Of a DNA stretch of 64,000 nucleotides, positions 16,540 through 62,306 are shown piece by piece (positions within the stretch are counted from its first letter, which is position 1; each line of letters opens with the position of its first letter). This stretch comes from Mayamaea pseudoterrestris. Its lineage: Eukaryota > Bacillariophyta > Bacillariophyceae > Sellaphorales > Sellaphoraceae. The DNA lies in NCBI GenBank assembly GCA_027923505.1, contig BROI01000019.1, forward strand, positions 62,001 to 126,000, given 5' to 3'. The notes below the pieces were generated by a model, which worked only from the letters and a program-made list of their open reading frames with translations, made no database searches and was not told where the DNA came from. Made by a program: the position numbers and the translations under genes.

Positions 16540-17901
16540 CTAGTTTTCCTTCTCATCCTTATCAGCCTCACGAATTGCTGCTGCTACTTCGCGAAGTCCC
16601 CATAAATTACTATGGAGCTTCAGAAAAAGCAAAACTTCAAATGAGTATGGCGTCATTCCAGCGCGCTCAACTGACAATATTTGCTTGGCATGGCTAAAGC
16701 ATTGCTCAACTGTATTATTGGTTCCAAGAATGAAGCGACAGTCCATGTACTTGCTTTTTCCATTTTGTGAATCACTTGCGTCGCCATCCAGGAAATCTTC
16801 CACCTTCTTGCGCCGCTTTGTGGCAGGACTAGCAACCTCATCGTCGAACCCCTTGTCATCCACTTCTTCCTCTTCGTCAGAGAGGAGCAAACATCGAACC
16901 GCACGTTTCTCTTCACGAGTAAGTTGCCGCTCCTTCCCTTTCTGGATCTTAATTACTCCCTGCTTAAAGTGTTTATACTTGACAACGTCAGAGGATGGCA
17001 CGCAGAGGTTGGTGACATTCTCCTCAATATTATTGCCAATATAATAGTCCTTCAACAAGCGATCAATGTGTTCCCTGTGGTGTTGTGCTGTGAAGTTGCT
17101 AACTTCCTCCTCCTCCTCTTCCTCCTCCTCCTCCTCGTCGCGCTCGATACTGTCGTCACCAAATATATCAGCCAATGCATCCGCAACAGCGCGGTCAACA
17201 CCTGCATGGTTGGCCAATGGGGAAATAGAAAGTAAGAGCTCCTTTAGCTCACCCCCTTGTAAAAAGGCAGCATATACAGCGAGATAGTGGACATTATGCG
17301 CCGTCCATCCGTCGAAATGACAAGCAAACTTATTTGGCAACATGTTGGATATCTTTTTCTCGACAATTGGAACCAATTTGAGCAAATACTTGCGCATTGT
17401 AGAAGACGACGGCCAGTGCTGTTGGTGAATGCTATTGGATTTGAACGATTGCTTGTCCAAGGTTGAAATAGGAAGGTCGTTGTCGACAAAAAACCAGCGC
17501 ATGATGGAATGTATGGCCTTGTCTCGGTCAGATGGGATCTGAAAGAAATTCTGCATCTGCCGTTGCTGCTTTGCGGTGCTGTTCGATTTTTGAAGCTCCT
17601 CAATCGCCTCGCGAACGCGTTTGTCAGTGCCAGCGACAGAAATGCAGGTGTCCATATGATTCTCAAGGTTCTTGAAGCCAGAATTAGCAATGATGTTGAA
17701 CTCTCTTTTGCATACATCATTCAAACACTGGAAGCGGTGGAAGAATCGTTGCTTTCCGGTCTCGTAGCGAGTTTCAATGTACTGGAAGCAAAACTTTGCG
17801 ATGCATGTAGGTCGCTTGCCCTTGTCGGATGGATCCCATTTCTCGCTGTAGGACGGAATTTTTGCCCCTGCAGGTGGTGCGCCCCAGACATAGGGCGCCA
17901 T
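16540..17901 (-). CDS. hAT-transposase-derived protein with shortened core
   Basis: 453 residues, uninterrupted. Order of parts: a BED-like zinc finger (C59, C64, H82, C86); the hAT RNase-H-fold opening CHFDGWTAHNVHYLAVYAAF (about 194-213); an acidic insert with 11 consecutive Glu (256-266); and the C-terminal hAT dimerisation domain, CRFILGTNNTVEQCFSHAK and YSFEVLLFLKLHSNLW (388-434). hAT transposases are usually about 600-700 residues. Here the segment normally following EENVTNLC (about 300), which would carry the second catalytic Asp, the conserved DNCSTN-like block and most of the insertion domain, is absent, while the frame stays open. So it is either a deletion derivative of a DNA transposon or a host gene retaining DNA-binding and dimerisation parts. 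No convincing terminal inverted repeats were found. Confidence 0.8.
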   Translation of the reverse strand: MAPYVWGAPPAGAKIPSYSEKWDPSDKGKRPTCIAKFCFQYIETRYETGKQRFFHRFQCLNDVCKREFNIIANSGFKNLENHMDTCISVAGTDKRVREAIEELQKSNSTAKQQRQMQNFFQIPSDRDKAIHSIMRWFFVDNDLPISTLDKQSFKSNSIHQQHWPSSSTMRKYLLKLVPIVEKKISNMLPNKFACHFDGWTAHNVHYLAVYAAFLQGGELKELLLSISPLANHAGVDRAVADALADIFGDDSIERDEEEEEEEEEEEVSNFTAQHHREHIDRLLKDYYIGNNIEENVTNLCVPSSDVVKYKHFKQGVIKIQKGKERQLTREEKRAVRCLLLSDEEEEVDDKGFDDEVASPATKRRKKVEDFLDGDASDSQNGKSKYMDCRFILGTNNTVEQCFSHAKQILSVERAGMTPYSFEVLLFLKLHSNLWGLREVAAAIREADKDEKEN

Positions 17902-46696: not shown

Positions 46697-49192
46697 TTAC
46701 AAGACGCTGGAGAAGGGATTGAACGAGCAACCAGCGTGCTGTATAGCTTCCAAGGCGCGCCGAGCACGCTCCTCCTGTCGAGCCAATTCTGCAGATCGTT
46801 GATCCTTCAAGCGAGAGCGAACTTCCTGACTGTAGGCGGCACGCTCCTCGTTGGCCTTTTGAGATCGCCATTGAAAGTGACGACTCTTCTCCTTGGCGCG
46901 CAAGGCGAGGGACATGCGACGGCGCTGCTTACATTCGCGAATATATTCCTCAACATCTTGACGAGCTTGTGTTTCTAGCTCAAAGTTGGAATGGTTGTAT
47001 TGTTGTTCTTGCAGCTGCTGTTCCTTGGCTTCAATTCGACGGACATGCGCTTCTTTGCCACGATATTGGAGCGACGTTCGATCGCGGGCAGCACACTTGC
47101 TATTGTACTGGTCGACATCCTTTTGGGCACCAGCCTTCCACTCTTCGTCGGCAGATTGCTGCTGAAGCTCCTTCTCGCGCAACTCCTTTTCGACCTGGCG
47201 ATGATGCTGGGATTGCTCACCTCGAAGCTGGAGCGAGTTGCGGCGATCCTCCTCCAAACTAGCCAGATACTTCTTAGCATCCTCCTCGCCAGCCCACTTG
47301 AGAACCAATGACTCGCGTTCTTTTTCCAACGCCAGTGATTCAAGCTCCTTCATGACTTTTGCACGACGAAAGGCTTCTTTGTTGCGCCAAGCCAAGGATT
47401 CGCGATGCTCCGCCTCCAACTGGCGTTTGTATTCCGCCGCATCCTTTTCACCTGCCCACTTGAGCTCTAAATTTTCATGTTCGGCAGCAATGAGTTGATC
47501 GCGATGCTGATCTTGCTGCAGGCGCTGCCGTAAGGCGTAGTTGTTGCGTTGGGCAAGACTTTGGCGCCGTCGCGCATCCTCCTGACGACGGTACTCGTCG
47601 GCATCTCGCTCGCCATCAAGCTTGAGCTGAATACTCTTTGATTCAAGTGCTTGTTCCTTCTCTTGCTGCGTGCGAGTGAGCTCGCGTCGATGCTTTGCTT
47701 CCTTGTTGGCCAACGCAAGGTTTTCGCGCTCCGTTTGCTCTAACTGACGCTTGTACTCCTCTACATCTTTTTCGGCAGCCCACTTTAGTTGGTATGAATC
47801 ATGCTCAGCTGCAAGCTGTTCGCTTCGTTCCATCATTTCCTGCTTGCGAATCAATCGAGCATGCTCGTTGCGTTGCGCCAAACTCTGGCGCTGTTCCTTC
47901 TGCAACTGGCGTTGATAGTCGTCCGCATCCTTTTGCGCCTGCCACTTGAGCTCCAAAGAAGCATGTTCCGCTGCTGCCGCTTGATTCTGTCGTTGCTCCT
48001 CCTCCTGACGAATCATTCGCGCGTGTGCGTTGCGGTTTGCCAAACTGAGTCGTCGCTCCGCCTCCAATTTATGCTTTTCCTCGTCAACGTCACGCTCCGC
48101 TGCCAGTTTAAGCTGAATGCTCGCAGACTCTTGTTCAAGTCGCTCGGATTCCATTTGCTGGTGCAGCAGGCGAATGCGACGGGCATCACCGTTGCGAAAG
48201 GCAAAGCTTTGACGACGATTCTCCGCGTACTGCTGTTTGGCATTCATTTGCATGCGACTCGCTTCGTAACGCTCTTCGTAGAGAATCTCATCTTCCTGAA
48301 TCAGCTGCAGTTTGAGTTGCTCCTGACCTTGCTTGTTATTGTTTCGCAAACGTGTTCGCGCCGCAATGGACATGCGCCGACGGCTCTCTCGTTCGTCTTT
48401 CAAAGCTTGCTGGTGGTCGCGAAACACGGCTGACTTGAACTGAGATTCATGTTCCAGTTGCTCCAACTGCTGCGCTTTATTGTCTTGTTCCTTTTGCGCC
48501 TTTGTTTGACTCTTGTTGGATGACAATGTTTGCTGCAATCGCAAAAGACGAAGGCGCTGCTGGTTTGACTGCTGATGAAACGACTCTGCTTCCAATTTGT
48601 CATGCATCCATTCTTGTTTGAGTTGCATCGTTTGCTGAAACTTAATATGGTTTGTCTCCTGTTTCGCTTTACGAGCAGCATTCATTGTTGGATTGATACT
48701 CATGGCTGACTTTACCGACGCAGATGCTTGTTGAATGGCGTCTTGAGTCTTTTTGACGCGATCCTTGTCGAATCGCCGAAAGGTAGTAGCTGGACGTTGC
48801 TGCTGCTGCGGAATGCGCTTTGGAGCGACTGCTTTCGTAGTGGATGCAAGCGAGTTGACCGACAATGGAAACGGCGCATTTTCTTTTTCCTTGTGCGTGG
48901 TCGTTTGAATAATTTTGTCAAAGGGCAAGTTGTTCGTCACGTTGCGTCGCGTAGTTGTAGCAGTTGCTGCAATGGAAGTATCTGTCGATTTGTCGAGCAA
49001 GTCTGGCGACTGCATGTTCTTCTTCTTGTCTGATCCATGCGCAAGGGATTCATTTGGAGAGCTATGATGCTCGCGACTAAAATCGGGAGACGGCGAATAG
49101 ACGAGACTCAAATCGCTCACATCTCCGTCGTCCTCCTCCAAAATGACGTCTCCAAAAACACTGTAAGCCTTTTCCAGTTTACTGTTCGACAT
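46697..49192 (-). CDS. Coiled-coil protein with ten exact 54-residue repeats
   Basis: 831 residues, single frame. Residues 1-180 are Ser/Thr/Asn-rich and disordered. From about 180 the protein is a continuous charged helix built of 54-residue units. Each unit carries R-x-x-S-[LF]-x-x-R, for example RRRMSIAAR, RRQSFAFRN, RRLSLANRN and DRRNSLQLRG. The motif Ser falls at 275, 329, 383, 437, (Asn at 491), 545, 599, 653, 707 and 761, always 54 apart with no insertion or deletion. From residue 361 the units also share LKWAGEKDxxEY. The pattern suggests a rigid rod with a fixed axial period; RRxS resembles a basophilic-kinase site. I do not recognise a family. Cytoskeletal, basal-body or cell-wall patterning roles are guesses. 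Confidence 0.85.
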   Translation of the reverse strand: MSNSKLEKAYSVFGDVILEEDDGDVSDLSLVYSPSPDFSREHHSSPNESLAHGSDKKKNMQSPDLLDKSTDTSIAATATTTRRNVTNNLPFDKIIQTTTHKEKENAPFPLSVNSLASTTKAVAPKRIPQQQQRPATTFRRFDKDRVKKTQDAIQQASASVKSAMSINPTMNAARKAKQETNHIKFQQTMQLKQEWMHDKLEAESFHQQSNQQRLRLLRLQQTLSSNKSQTKAQKEQDNKAQQLEQLEHESQFKSAVFRDHQQALKDERESRRRMSIAARTRLRNNNKQGQEQLKLQLIQEDEILYEERYEASRMQMNAKQQYAENRRQSFAFRNGDARRIRLLHQQMESERLEQESASIQLKLAAERDVDEEKHKLEAERRLSLANRNAHARMIRQEEEQRQNQAAAAEHASLELKWQAQKDADDYQRQLQKEQRQSLAQRNEHARLIRKQEMMERSEQLAAEHDSYQLKWAAEKDVEEYKRQLEQTERENLALANKEAKHRRELTRTQQEKEQALESKSIQLKLDGERDADEYRRQEDARRRQSLAQRNNYALRQRLQQDQHRDQLIAAEHENLELKWAGEKDAAEYKRQLEAEHRESLAWRNKEAFRRAKVMKELESLALEKERESLVLKWAGEEDAKKYLASLEEDRRNSLQLRGEQSQHHRQVEKELREKELQQQSADEEWKAGAQKDVDQYNSKCAARDRTSLQYRGKEAHVRRIEAKEQQLQEQQYNHSNFELETQARQDVEEYIRECKQRRRMSLALRAKEKSRHFQWRSQKANEERAAYSQEVRSRLKDQRSAELARQEERARRALEAIQHAGCSFNPFSSVL

Positions 49193-49909: not shown

Positions 49910-50972
49910 ATGCAACTTGGCAGCTTGTTCTTCACTCTGGGAGCCGTGCACGCCGACATTCTCGTCATTCGCTTCTTCATGGTGAGCGCCTATTCTTGCC
50001 TCTTTCTCCAAGCCGTCTTGGGTGGACCGCTCTGGCCGTATGCAGCAGATACAAGCAATGAAAGTTTAAAACTAGACGCGCTGCTATGGTCAATACTAAA
50101 CTTGTACTTGCATGGATTTTCCTTGGTTGTTTTGTTGACCGACGAAGCCAAAGTACAATTGACCGACGATCAAGCTGCACTCTGGCGACTCTTTTACCGA
50201 ACTGGTGGCATGTCGGAGCGAATTTTCTACGAAGTCATGGTTTCCAATGGGCATGTGCAAGTTGTCGAGTGCGACGCAGACACAACTCTGGACACAGACA
50301 ATCACTTTTACATTCTCTATCAAGGCAGCGTCACAATGCACATTCAGGATGCGCGTGGAGAATCCATTGACCGACAAGTAGGCAGGGGCGAAATTTTTGA
50401 TTTCAAGCATCTTGGGATGCTCAACCAAAGCAAATACTTCCAGGAAACGTTTATACGCTGCGAAACAAAGACCAAGGCCAAGTTCTTCCAATTCAGCAAA
50501 GATTCCATGTCGCAAATAGCTCACCACCCGCTTTCCAAGGTGGTTTGGCAGTCGCTTTTGATCAACAATCTGTCTAGAGCTGTGGCCAACGCTCGAAGAG
50601 GCAATTTGTTTGTGAGCGAGGAATGTGCCGACGACATTTTTGCGCCACTTGCAAGTTGGGAGCTGCCTGACGCTACAAAGGCTGGTTCGGGTCAAACGCT
50701 TCACCATCCATTCCAGTACATTTGGTTGTCCATGCGACGGTCCTGTTACTACCCGTGGCCATGTGGTCGGTCGACGCCTGGAATGCGGCAGACGCAGCTG
50801 GCGGCGCCAGTGTCATTGACAAACGTGTCGGCTGGATCCTCGCGTTCCGACATGGAACGCGCCGTATCATATCCGTGAATGTTTGCAGGTGCGCGATTCA
50901 AAGGGACCGATTGTGTTTGAACTGGAGCCTTTCATCGCAGCCAAAGTGAATCTAATCTTGATATGTTGGTGA
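49910..50972 (+). CDS. Popeye-like cyclic-nucleotide-binding-fold protein; C-terminus unresolved
   Basis: The frame from the ATG at 49910 shows the Popeye domain layout: two or three N-terminal hydrophobic helices (about 1-75, with HADILVIRFFMVSAYSCLF and LLWSILNLYLHGFSLVVLL), then LTDEAKVQLTDDQAALWRLF and a beta-roll like the cAMP-binding fold (DNHFYILYQGSVTMHI, VGRGEIFDFKHLGM). POPDC proteins bind cAMP and act in membranes. The continuous frame ends at 50878, but its last 50 or so residues look non-coding. A different frame, 50835-50972, reads DPRVPTWNAPYHIRECLQV and GPIVFELEPFIAAKVN, a far more natural ending, so an unrecognised splice or frame change lies near 50700-50830. Confidence 0.6.
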
Positions 50973-55173: not shown

Positions 55174-56957
55174 AGTGTCTAAGCTCGGGCGAGTTTGTGT
55201 TCAAGTGGGAACCAAGATCCTCAGTTTCCCTTTCGCTCGTTCGCCCGCCTGCTTTCCCATCCGCCATTGCCATTGAGGCCATTGCCAAGAACTCCGCACT
55301 CCAGCGCTTATGTACCTAGAGTAGCCTAAGCCTAACTTAGTTGCTCGTGGCTGAGTAGAGCGTCTTACAACGTCCCCTTGCTCCAATCCTTTGGTGTGTT
55401 GCCATTTTGTGCCGACGCTTCAAGTCCATTCCAGCGGCAACCAAGACATTCCAGCGGCACGCAAGTTGGTCCAACATCCCCTTTATCCACGCGACCACGA
55501 AGACGACACAGCGCGTGCTCTCTGTTGACTCTGACTCTGACTCGGATGGCGAGCAATTAAAGAAGCTGAAGAACTTTGACTTTAAGAATCCCGACGCTAT
55601 GAATGAACTCGTCGGCAACTTGCTGGTCACCATGCATACGCTCACGAAGACGACGCTCAAGAAGGACAAGCAGGCAGCTCTCCAAGCCAAGCGCCACGCC
55701 GACGACCTTGACAAGCGCCATGAAGAGCGCAAGCGCAACGACGAGGCGCAGCGTCTTTTGATTGAAAAGACTTGCAAGTCTGGCGAGTCTTCATCATCCG
55801 GATTCTCCAAGCTCCTCGGCGACAACCAGCGCATGCTCCTTCGCCTCGCAACGCCCATCAGCGGAGTCACTCCCGAAGAGCCTTCCACATTCCAAACAAC
55901 CTTCTTTGCCGCCAAGAAAGATATTGCTCATTCGTTGTTGAAGCAAGCTTGCGAACGCTACAATGCTGAGTTTGTTGTTGGAAAAGGGGTGTCGCTGCGC
56001 ACGCTTTCAACGGACATCCCCGCGTCGAACCGGGACTCAACCATGAACATCTCCCTCCTCAACTTTACGGGCGCTCTTGTTGTCGTTCATTCTACTGATG
56101 ACCTTTGCGATCGCCAAGCTCTAGCCAACAATCAAGTTGAAGGATCTACCATGAAGAAGATTGCTGGCGACATTGTTTGGGAGTTTCCATCCGATGGCAA
56201 CGCGCTCGTCCGTGGCCTCTTCAAGTATGCCGTTTACTTTGACGTACTCGCTGGCCTCTCTCCAACCAGCGGCACATCCACCCTCATCGCTCAAAAGATT
56301 CGCTCCTTGGCTTCCACGTTAGCGAATCGCATTGACAAGATGCAAACGTTGCAGAATCAAGATCCTGACGCCATCGCTCAGTTTGCCAACACGATCGACA
56401 CCAAGATCAACATTTTCCTCAACCATTGTTTCAAGGACGCCATCTTCGACCCTACTCGCCTCGACGAGTTGGAAACCCTTGACAAGTACTTGGACTGTGG
56501 CTTTTCAAGCATCCTTTGCACCATTCCATCCTTCTTGCTCGAGCGCCTTCCATCGCATCGCATTGCCAAACGTGGCGCCGGCCAGCTGCCAGGAGGAGCC
56601 TCTCCTCCTGTAATCAAGCAAGCGAAGACTGGCGATGAAGGTGGCGCAGGAGCTCGCCAATTCCAAGCTCGCATCAATCCAAACAAGTTGGATATCCCAG
56701 CAGGGCATACGTATCAAAGCCTCTGTCCTCCAGGCAGCTTCCGTCGCAGTCCTCGGATCAAGATCGGCAACAAGGCAGGCCGCCCTTGCTTGAACTACTA
56801 CCTTCGCGGCGAATGCCGTTACCGCATCTGTCAAAACATGCATGGTCCATTGCGCCCTCAAGATAAAGTAAAACTCGAAGCGTTTATCGCTGCTCAAGCG
56901 GCCAATCCCAATGGAGACGCCAACCCACCAGCGGCCGCGGATGAGGACGAGTCCTGA
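54827..56957 (+). mobile_element. Gag-like region of the retroelement
   Basis: Begins with MSSNWLSYYSDP and ends with a Cys/His knuckle, CLNYYLRGECRYRICQNMH, of the kind that binds nucleic acid. Helical, Lys/Asp-rich middle part. Fossil; listed as a part only. Confidence 0.7.
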
Positions 56958-57798
56958 GGAGAATCCTCCACATGGTCAGCGGATGACCATGCTGGAGGAG
57001 CCTCTACTAGTTACGGCAACAATAACTTAGTAGCACAAGGTTCCAATCCCTACCATAACGCTACTAGTCGACTCGTCAACAACAACATCAACGAACACGT
57101 CCATGCCCCACCGGCAGCCACTGCGACCTCTCCAAGGCTGCGTCATCTTCACAATCAATGGCAGCGTCTCCAACAACAAGTTGATTCACTCACTTCATCA
57201 ACAGCAACAGCAACCATCGAGGACGAGTCATCCTCCTCCGACGACGACTCTGCCACCTACAGTGTTCATTCCATTCATCACCAGTCCGCGGCATCAACAA
57301 GCCATGCTACAGACTCGACGGCAACCACGACAGCCGCCCCGACGCCCACCAAGCCAACGTTTGCAATCAACGCTCCAACAGTCGCTCCAGCCATCCTCGC
57401 ATCGCCATCACGCCAGCTCACACCAGCGCGCAAACATCAACTTGCCTGGACGGCGCGTCGCCTCGCTGCTCGTACCGAGCGAGACGACTCAGAGGAGGAG
57501 GCAGACGACGGCGACGCAAACGGATCGGCCGCCACAACAACAAAGAATGGACCAGCACTTAAACGGATTAAGCATAAGCATCCAATGTCCACATTCCTGC
57601 ATCCTTCTTCCATATCAAACGAAATGAGTAAGTACTCCTTTCAACAAGTCCTCAAATGGACTGTCCGAATCCCTTCGTCTGCCCAGGACGAGTCCGCAAC
57701 AAACCCACCCAACGTCCCAATTACCATCCACGTTAACGCCACATCCACTACACAATCAATTGGACTCGCTTTATCGACTGAACTAGTCGATCCAGGGA

Positions 57799-59313
57799 TT
57801 GATTTGCCGCCTGCTCCTTGGCCGTCCAACGACGCCACCTGGCTGCAGTCCATCCTCCAAGCGCTCCAGTGGTTGCCACCGCCTTTACTTCCGTCGCCCT
57901 TCTGCTTTGAAATTACGCAAGAGGCAGCTGCCTACAATTTATCCATTCTTCAAGCCAACGACATGGATTTGCGCCACTTGCTCTTCTCCAACAAGGATTT
58001 GCCAACTTGTCCGGGCTCCAACTTTCGCCCAGTGGAACTACTCGATCCAATCTTCCTTGGCCACCCTAACTGGCCGCGTGTTCGCAGCACACTCAACAGG
58101 CGTGGCCTTTCCTCTCGATCCTCTCGAGGAGAAGACGCGCATTGAGGAGCTCAACGCCATGGTCGATTATGGGAATCACAAGTCAGCAAAAACGGAGCGA
58201 CACGCAGTCCTCGACACGTTGAAAGAAGAGACGGCAAAAGGATGGCATCTGCCTCTACCACTTGACGCTCTACATCTTATTCCCAACGTCTCTGTTGCTC
58301 CTTTTGGATATGTTAAACAACTCAAGCTACAAGCCGACGGATCCCGCAAGGAGGCTGGAAGGATTACGCACGATCAAACGTTCTGCCGTCTCCACGATGG
58401 CACCTCTGTTAATAAACGGGTCCGCAAGGCCGATCTACCACCCGTCTTCTACGGATTTGCTTTGCAACGCCTTCTTCATCGGATCATTGCTACAAGAGAC
58501 AAGTATAATGATCTTCCTATCTATCTTCCTAAATATGACTGGAAATCAGCCTACAAAAACTGTCACTTTGGCCTCGAAACACTTGTCCAATCGGCAACCA
58601 CGACAAAAGGTATCACGATCGACTCCACGCTGGCGCTCTTTGCCCTTCGCATGACTTTCGGTGGCTCTCCATGCCCCACAGTCTTCAGTGACCTCTCGGA
58701 ACTAGTCACTGACGCGGCCAACCAACTCGTCCGCGACGGCAACTGGCACCCTGCGACAATCCAATCCAGGTTCATTGCCAACATCAGCGTGGAACCAATC
58801 GTGTATCCTACGCCATCAACACCATTTGCAACATCTCGCCCCATGGCAGTTGGTGCTATGATCCCTGTTGATGGCAGCCCTTGTTTTGACGTCTTTCTTG
58901 ATGATCATCTTGGCGTCATTGTCCATACTAGTAACGACGCATTGATCCGTGGTGCTCATGCCATCCCATTATTACTTGATGTGCTTGGTCGCCCCGAGCG
59001 TGCCGACGAACCTCTACCGCGAAACGCTTTAATTGCAGTCTCCAAGTTGATTGCGGAAGGGTGTTTAACAGAGATTCAAGTGGTACTTGGTTGGGAGATT
59101 GATACTCGCACTCTTATCATCCGCCTCCCAGCCGACAAATTTCGCCTCTATACGACGAGTATTCGACCTCTCCAAAGTTTCTGCAACTCCACAATCAATA
59201 ACAACATCTCCACCAACAAGTTGATTCTTTATCATCATCATCATCAACAGCAACCATTGAGGCTGACTCATCCGCCTCTGACGACGACTCTGCTAGAAGG
59301 TGCGAAGTATTAG
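57799..59313 (+). mobile_element. Reverse transcriptase region of the retroelement
   Basis: Contains YLPKYDWKSAYKNCHFG and, further on, FDVFLDDHLGVIVH, which carries the YxDD-type (here LDD) core, with MTFGGSPCPTVFSDL between them. These match DIRS-like and other retroelement reverse transcriptases. Fossil; listed as a part only. Confidence 0.8.
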
Positions 59314-59320
59314 AAAGAGT

Positions 59321-61403
59321 GTCTATCTCGAGCAGAACGCCGCGATTTGATCACCTGCTTGGAGTACCTTACCACTGCTCACGCTGTGTGGACATCAACA
59401 CCATCTTTCGATACCCCGACGCCTTTGTCCTTATGGATGCTTGCATGTACCAAGTAAGCGGTTACAATTTGGATGGACGAGGATGGCACTGGCGCGTTCC
59501 AAAAGGTGCAACGCTGCAGCACATCAACTTTTATAAGTTCCTTGGCTTTGTTGTCGGCATTTGGCTCGCCGCCTTCGAAGGACGCCTCCATCAAGGAGAT
59601 TGCGTGCTCGCCATTGGTGACAACACTACAGCAGCAGGATGGCTGCATCGCTCCAACTTTTCAGATGAAACAGCCACTCCTCAAACGGTCTTGCTAGCGA
59701 GGCTGTTGTCCGCCATCTGTTTGGAATACGGAGTCTGCTGCAACTCGCAGTGGCATATGGGATTGGATAACGTGGTTCCTGATTTAATATCACATGATAT
59801 GGCCTGTTCTGATGCCAATCTCACCACCCACATCCTCTTCGTTCCTTCTTTGGCCTTAAAGGTACCGGCCTCCTTTTGCGTGGCTCGTCTACCGAGCAGG
59901 ATTTCATGCGCTCTCTCCTCCTTGATGCAGCTGACATGAGTTCCTCGGAGTCACACGCGCCACACACGCTAGAACATGGCTTGGGACCGTTGGATACGTT
60001 CTCTGAAAGAGCTGGTTTCTCGACCAATCCGTTCCTCCTTGAAGTCGACAGCCACCAACGCTTCCTTCTCTTCCTCGCCTTCATCCAGTCTGTCAGGAAC
60101 GACAACTATTCATCGCCACGCAACGGAAATCCCTTCTTGGTTGCCGGATCTGTCCAGTCCACCATCAATGGTGTGGCTAAGGCCTTTAAAGCCGCCGGCC
60201 ACCCCGACCCTCACAAAAATGACAGAGGAGACAACTTTCTAGTACTCGAGCGTCTCTACAAAGGCTACAAGAACTTGGATCCGTCTACGCGTCATCAAAT
60301 GGCGCTCCCGATGTATCTCTTGCGCAAGCTTATCATGGAGCGCTCTGACAATCCAGCCTACAGTCTATCTCGAGCAGAACGCCGCGATTTGATCACCTGC
60401 TTGGAGTACCTTACCACTGCTCACGCTGTGTGGACATCAACACCATCTTTCGATACCCCGACGCCTTTGTCCTTATGGATGCTTGCATGTACCAAGTAAG
60501 CGGTTACAATTTGGATGGACGAGGATGGCACTGGCGCGTTCCAAAAGGTGCAACGCTGCAGCACATCAACTTTTATAAGTTCCTTGGCTTTGTTGTCGGC
60601 ATTTGGCTCGCCGCCTTCGAAGGACGCCTCCATCAAGGAGATTGCGTGCTCGCCATTGGTGACAACACTACAGCAGCAGGATGGCTGCATCGCTCCAACT
60701 TTTCAGATGAAACAGCCACTCCTCAAACGGTCTTGCTAGCGAGGCTGTTGTCCGCCATCTGTTTGGAATACGGAGTCTGCTGCAACTCGCAGTGGCATAT
60801 GGGATTGGATAACGTGGTTCCTGATTTAATATCACATGATATGGCCTGTTCTGATGCCAATCTCACCACCCACATCCTCTTCGTTCCTTCTTTGGCCTTA
60901 AAGGTACCGGCCTCCTTTTGCGTGGCTCGTCTACCGAGCAGGATTTCATGCGCTCTCTCCTCCTTGATGCAGCTGACATGAGTTCCTCGGAGTCACACGC
61001 GCCACACACGCTAGAACATGGCTTGGGACCGTTGGATACGTTCTCTGAAAGAGCTGGTTTCTCGACCAATCCGTTCCTCCTTGAAGTCGACAGCCACCAA
61101 CGCTTCCTTCTCTTCCTCGCCTTCATCCAGTCTGTCAGGAACGACAACTATTCATCGCCACGCAACGGAAATCCCTTCTTGGTTGCCGGATCTGTCCAGT
61201 CCACCATCAATGGTGTGGCTAAGGCCTTTAAAGCCGCCGGCCACCCCGACCCTCACAAAAATGACAGAGGAGACAACTTTCTAGTACTCGAGCGTCTCTA
61301 CAAAGGCTACAAGAACTTGGATCCGTCTACGCGTCATCAAATGGCGCTCCCGATGTCCCTAATGCGCAAGCTTATCATGGAGCGCTCTGACAATCCAGCC
61401 TAC
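59321..61403 (+). repeat. Tandem pair of 1042-bp units within the retroelement
   Basis: Unit 1 is about 59321-60362 and unit 2 about 60363-61403, read as nearly identical with a few differences at the far end. Each unit spans an RNase-H-like part (LDGRGWHWRVPKG, VLAIGDNTTAAGWLH) and the beginning of the recombinase part. Confidence 0.9.
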
Positions 61404-62306
61404 AGTCATTTCCAGCTATTAGTCGGCCTCGCAGTCTTCTTTGCAATGCGCTCTTGCGAGTACCTTTGCATCCAAAAAGGCGACAGAGTTGAACGCCGCA
61501 CGCTGCCCATTCGAGCGTGCGATATAACGTTCTGGAAAGATGGCAAAAAGCTACCTCATAATAGCTCCTCCCTACACTTTGCCGACTCAGTTTCCATCAT
61601 CTTTCGCTTTCAAAAGAATCAATGGCGAGATGAAATTGTCACAATGGGACGCTCCGGACACTATTTCATGTGCCCCGTTGTCCTTGCGGCTTTGCTCGTC
61701 CGCTCGCTAAACAAGCTCGTCTCCAAGAAGCTTGTTAAGGAAGATGCCGAGCTCTACCATTACCTCGATTCTAATGGCAAAGTTGCTACTTGCAATACCA
61801 AGTTGGCGCTTCAATTCCTTCGCCAGTTTGTTTCCAGCAACGAGCCCGATTCCCTTGGCCTCGAAGTCGACCGCGTTGGCCTCCATTCCCTTCGCGCTAC
61901 TGCAGCAATGGCTATGTATCTTGCCAACGTTCAAGTCTGCACTATAATGCTTGTTGGACGATGGCGCAGCTTTGCCTTCTTATCTTATATTCGCAAGCAA
62001 GTGGAGCAGTTTACCGAGGGCGTTTCCGCCAAGATGCTTACCGTCGACTCCTTTCACACCGTCAACATTCAACGCCACCAACAACAACAACAACATCAAC
62101 AACCTCATTACATTTCCGATCAAACAGAACAACGGACGCTCCCATGCCATGGGACCACGTTGCCCATCGCCTTCAACGCGCCCGCCCACGCTCCCCCGCC
62201 ATCAATGGCACAGCAGCAGCTTCTGCAGCTGACGAGTGATCGCGCTTTACCGCCGATCAGTCACTGTGTTCAGTGGGGGAGGCTTTGGTTCCGACACATT
62301 AGCTAA
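60918..62306 (+). mobile_element. Tyrosine recombinase region of the retroelement
   Basis: The C-terminal half has the recombinase marks: Arg in FFAMRSCEYLC, the HSLRATAAMAMYLA box (HxxR) and VGRWRSFAFLSYIRK with the late Trp and Tyr. A Gln/His/Pro-rich tail follows. This domain assigns the element to the tyrosine-recombinase retroelements. Fossil; listed as a part only. Confidence 0.8.

Follow-up and report, generated by a model that had tools for sequence, protein, structure and literature searches.

The window, i.e. the whole analysed stretch of 64,000 nucleotides from the diatom Mayamaea pseudoterrestris, contains on its minus strand an open reading frame of 831 codons encoding a repeat protein, P0001. 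The open frame comprises 834 codons including the stretch before the ATG, and an in-frame TAG is located 3 codons upstream of this ATG. Hence, the 831 amino acids represent the whole protein, barring an upstream exon. The following features were assigned.

46697..49192, minus strand: 831-aa ORF of P0001, read as a single exon (ORF reading)
48773..49192, minus strand: residues 1-140, without predicted structure (block pLDDT 32-42), net charge 0, 4 Ser-Pro sites and 1 KEN tripeptide at residue 103 (motif and charge counts)
46736..48679, minus strand: residues 172-819 (648 residues), predicted as helix for the most part (AlphaFold2 model)
Within the same model: non-helical breaks at residues 334-337, 345-357, 499-501, 506-527, 634-635, and 702-703
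48272..48433, minus strand: residues 254-307, degenerate unit that retains RRxS at 275 (z 2.5)
46814..48271, minus strand: residues 308-793, nine clear 54-residue units (z 6.3-11.1; gap-free alignment)
46697..46735, minus strand: residues 820-831, short non-helical C-terminal tail, and stop (AlphaFold2 model)

A period of 54 residues had been proposed from the sequence-only reading and proved to be real. In the BLOSUM62 autocorrelation of residues 141-831 lag 54 reached 1.00 (7.5 SD over the average for lags 5-329), and the six strongest lags in this range were 54, 108, 162, 270, 216, and 324. The maximum over 2000 residue shuffles was 0.03 at any lag from 10 to 149. Likewise, 2000 shuffles of residues 172-819 in blocks of 6 residues reached at most 0.19 versus 1.10 observed. 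Scoring by a leave-one-out profile in fixed register resulted in z values of 6.3-11.1 for the nine units of residues 308-793, 2.5 at residue 254, 1.7 at 200, and -0.9 at 146. Thus, nine units are clear and the tenth, at 254, is weak. The ten repeats initially described are therefore found at the level of the Ser/Asn position, which recurs at 275+54k in ten of ten cases, whereas by profile only nine of them qualify as clear units.

The nine core units were aligned without gaps, the tenth unit being included in this alignment. Each third of the ten units was allowed shifts of at most 12 residues, and offset 0 came out best in 8, 9, and 8 of the 10 units, respectively (misses: units 254, 308, and 740). 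Columns 35-50 alone gave offset 0 in 7 of 10 units (misses: 254, 686, and 740). In the worn stretch of residues 172-307 the best lag was 55 instead of 54, and it was weak (0.27). These results establish the strict register for residues 308-793, and from residue 275 by the Ser motif alone. The earlier description of a perfect register holds to this extent.

Mean identity among the nine core units is 32% (range 15-48%), in line with the description of widely differing repeat sequences. Between units, 0.658 of the compared third codon positions are different, and where residues are identical the codon is shared at a frequency of 0.44 versus 0.38 expected from the codon usage of the gene. Synonymous sites are thus near saturation, indicating that the repeats are old. 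Pairwise identity was 0.375 in columns 1-34 and 0.185 in columns 35-48 at a chance level of 0.089. A freely varying linker of fixed length in columns 35-48 was ruled out by shuffling within this segment, which gave a mean of 0.134 and did not reach 0.185 in any of 2000 shuffles.

At the ten positions from 275 to 761 Ser occurs nine times and Asn once (residue 491), as counted before. The R-x-x-S-L context assigned to these positions has to be modified: Arg at -3 is present in only 6 of 10 units and the invariant Arg is located at -2 (10 of 10), while +1 is occupied by Leu in 8 units and by Ile and Phe in 1 each. Further conserved columns are Asp 7, Tyr 11, Arg 20, Leu 23, Arg 26, and Asn 27. 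Ser is only one among several such columns, and its role may simply be that of a contact. Substrates of PKA-type basophilic kinases carry the pattern R-R-x-S-hydrophobic, and 6 of the 10 units have RRxS with I, F, or L as the next residue. Judged by this pattern, a phosphorylation switch at the RRxS sites is possible.

The statement that no known family contains this unit is in agreement with the database searches. Neither Pfam nor NCBIfam gave a match to P0001 at E values up to 10, and neither the single sequence nor the repeat profile matched PDB sequences at E<=10. A fold search of the PDB with the P0001 model was also empty, which is uninformative for a lone helix modelled at low confidence. 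Among the best candidates scored in the genome (30.6 Mb, 41 contigs), no paralogue was found outside the ORF at E<=0.001 for whole P0001 or at E<=10 for five units. Pattern matches in viral contigs (9 and 12) and in bacterial and archaeal contigs (129) included no relative. Among openly licensed papers in PMC, searches for a 54-residue repeat gave a single paper, on phage endolysins, and no protein resembling P0001.

AlphaFold2 applied to the single P0001 sequence predicted mostly helix for residues 172-819, at low confidence (mean pLDDT 62.9, no residue >=90). The span of 648 residues equals 12 x 54, although its ends are inexact in this low-confidence model. A heptad seam was not detectable in P0001 (mean z -0.05 over 89 windows, a fraction of 0.04 above z 1.64). 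In contrast, two MukB coils used as positive control gave mean heptad z values of 1.14 (42 windows) and 1.49 (41 windows), with fractions of 0.36 and 0.44 above z 1.64, so that a heptad coiled coil is disfavoured for P0001. A hendecad seam was not found either (mean z -0.17, 88 windows). Like charges are scarcer than expected at i,i+4 (28 versus 48.7, z -3.6), as in single alpha-helices. Opposite-charge pairs are mildly enriched, with z values of 1.4 and 1.4 at i+4 and of 2.1 and 0.4 at i+3. Taken together, these values are more in keeping with a single helix than with a paired rod. Hence, the term rod used in the sequence-only reading is adequate for a predicted single helix, on the basis of the low-confidence model, and not for a coiled coil.

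We tentatively regard P0001 as a tandem-repeat helix that binds the microtubule lattice in a MAP7-like mode, a prediction to which we give a chance just short of even. Arithmetically, 54 residues correspond to 81 Å (54 x 1.5 Å) and to 15.0 turns (54/3.6). The same helix face would thus return with every unit, every 81 Å. The axial length of the tubulin dimer is about 8 nm. This reading is favoured because 81 Å matches the dimer and because MAP7 and MAP9 provide precedents. Selection on a physical period, as postulated before, is in keeping with a strict spacing maintained at 32% mean identity and near-saturated synonymous sites, and a 54-residue helix would match the tubulin dimer in length. 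The nature of the filament, the binding mode, and the phosphorylation switch are what we infer.

According to this proposal, the repeat region would form one long straight alpha-helix along a protofilament, each 54-residue unit covering one alpha/beta-tubulin dimer. The residues K-W/L-x-A-x-K/R-D...Y...L...R-x-S-L-A-x-R-N would dock at the same place on each successive tubulin dimer. With nine to twelve such contacts in register, each of them weak, the protein would stabilise a lattice length of about 70-100 nm or measure it, and it could be released through phosphorylation of the basic RRxS sites.

The 53-residue helix of MAP7 lies on the lattice parallel to the axis and is about one tubulin dimer long (PMC8985661), and its interface is argued to reach beyond one dimer (PMC10908866). 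P0001 shares with MAP7 a dimer-long single helix as the unit, which in P0001 is predicted. MAP7 has one such helical segment, whereas P0001 has nine or ten in tandem. A sequence match supporting membership in the MAP7 family was not found (0 Pfam families, 0 PDB sequences at E<=10); P0001 would thus be MAP7-like in its proposed mode, but its sequence does not place it in the MAP7 family. For MAP9, PMC12667982 describes one helix whose five pseudo-repeats follow the spacing of the lattice and use W and K, with a motif Phi-x-x-W-x-x-x-K, spacers of 35-36 residues, and a path that crosses protofilaments. The long single helix and the pseudo-repeats at a set spacing resemble what is predicted for P0001. 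The MAP9 motif with its 35-36 residue spacers crosses protofilaments, whereas the period of 54 would fit the axial dimer. By eye, W is present in 4 of the 9 core units and W-x-x-x-K in 3 of 9, a weak likeness to MAP9. The full MAP9 motif was not found, since none of the 4 W-bearing core units combines a Phi-type residue at -3 with Lys at +4 (by eye) and the period is 54 instead of 35-36.

Binding to the microtubule lattice is supported by the period and register, the near-saturated synonymous sites, the helix prediction, the absence of a seam, and the depletion of like charges. Several results count against it, namely a net charge of only +11 over the 648 residues of the helix, which is low for a binder of acidic tubulin, an enrichment of opposite charges that is no more than mild, the low confidence of the model and its breaks near 334-357 and 499-527, and a number of non-significant tests. 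Helical-wheel tests over the 54 columns, run at 100 degrees per residue, gave no significant result for conservation (p 0.24), for positive charge (p 0.12), or for hydrophobic residues (p 0.47), and a 54-residue charge wave was not significant either (p 0.10). A conserved face at 100 degrees per residue was dropped accordingly, as was the idea of a basic stripe running straight along one face of the helix, despite a peak of positive charge at period 3.600 in residues 308-793, given the p value of 0.12 on column permutation. Furthermore, the length match is one number: if unit lengths from 20 to 120 were equally likely, about 3% would fall within one residue of 54 by our own arithmetic. The match to 15 turns depends on the same number and is not independent of that to 81 Å.

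The genome contains 7 stretches matching the tubulin family (PF00091, which includes FtsZ), tubulin and plastid FtsZ not being separated in this count. Actin was rejected as partner, because 81 Å corresponds to about 1.5 actin subunits with their rise of about 55 Å and thus to no whole number. A septin filament was rejected as well: the genome yielded no match to septins in a search in which 6 of 14 prokaryote controls gave signals, none over the cut-off, and which had no true positive control.

Among the alternatives, a self-assembling helical rod fares best, although we consider it rather unlikely. Here, molecules would bind one another side by side at staggers of multiples of 54 residues, giving a striated fibre, or a lattice, that repeats every 8 nm without involvement of microtubules. 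The strict period, the predicted long helix, and the conserved hydrophobic columns would serve this arrangement equally well, and the Q/E/K/R-rich sequence may suit lateral charge pairing. However, pairing helical rods usually have a heptad or hendecad seam, of which P0001 has neither, and the W, Y, and N conserved among its columns are more suggestive of docking onto a structured surface. Less probable still is a stable single-alpha-helix spacer, i.e. a stiff arm in which the repeats are remnants of tandem duplication. It would account for a helix with 39% charged residues and 17% Q/N, for the missing seam, and for the scarcity of like charges at i,i+4, but it needs no specific conserved W, Y, D, N, or S columns, and columns 1-34 have kept an identity of 0.375 against 0.089 by chance despite near-saturated synonymous sites.

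We give little credence to a coiled-coil protein of the usual type, in which the period would reflect nothing outside the protein itself. P0001 is predicted to be a long helix and is rich in Glu, Gln, and Arg, and coiled-coil repeat proteins can likewise keep their register without insertions or deletions; the heptad z values, close to zero in P0001 and clearly positive in both MukB coils, contradict this explanation, as does the fact that 54 is no multiple of 7. An axonemal microtubule inner protein is very improbable: a 648-residue helix would measure about 97 nm, close to the axonemal repeat of 96 nm, but ParcG, TPH, Radial_spoke_3, and DM10 had no match in the genome, an absence that is unproved, as 14 control genomes were silent too. 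TPH-domain proteins of microtubule lumens, e.g. MNS1, are long charged helices on microtubules; P0001 had no Pfam match to TPH (PF13868), and neither had the genome, with the controls silent.

If P0001 does bind the microtubule lattice, a further step is conceivable, albeit speculative and improbable as a whole. P0001 may act as a "nebulin of microtubules", its up to 12 dimer-long units (648 residues, about 97 nm) reading and stabilising a fixed length of lattice, for example in the highly ordered spindle of the diatom. Phosphorylation at each unit would free the protein, and its degradation would proceed via the KEN motif. The nebulin unit comprises 35 residues and binds actin; both proteins have many repeats of one length, helical in nebulin and predicted to be so in P0001, and in nebulin this length is matched to the filament subunit. 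A spindle protein under cell-cycle control might well carry Ser-Pro sites and a KEN tripeptide such as those in residues 1-140; this is only a lead, as short motifs of this kind also arise by chance. Single lattice-reading helices are already known from MAP7 and MAP9. If true, the dimer-long helical unit repeated nine or ten times would show how binders of the MAP7/MAP9 type can multiply into a ruler, and P0001 would provide an entry point to the microtubule arrays of diatoms. From the sequence we predict an 8-nm register on microtubules and a loss of binding if the spacing between units is shifted by a few residues.

Upstream of P0001, a divergent gene at window positions 49910-50878 is Popeye-domain-like, its score of 24 bits being below the Pfam cut-off of 28.1 bits. 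An ORF run at 55599-62306 resembles a retroelement by eye and includes a tyrosine-recombinase-like ORF (60948-62306); three ORFs tested had no Pfam match. Similarly, an ORF at 16540-17901 looks by eye like the remnant of a hAT-type transposase, without a Pfam match. In the genome, 10 matches to silicon transporters were found, 9 of them over the cut-off (best E 2.0e-197), which points to a diatom. Such transporters also occur in a few other algae and protists. Three of the matches (loci L003-L005, G000:C1:2970661-2974680) lie in one frame, each in a 1445-codon open frame, and the genome thus seems to encode a triple-fused silicon transporter.
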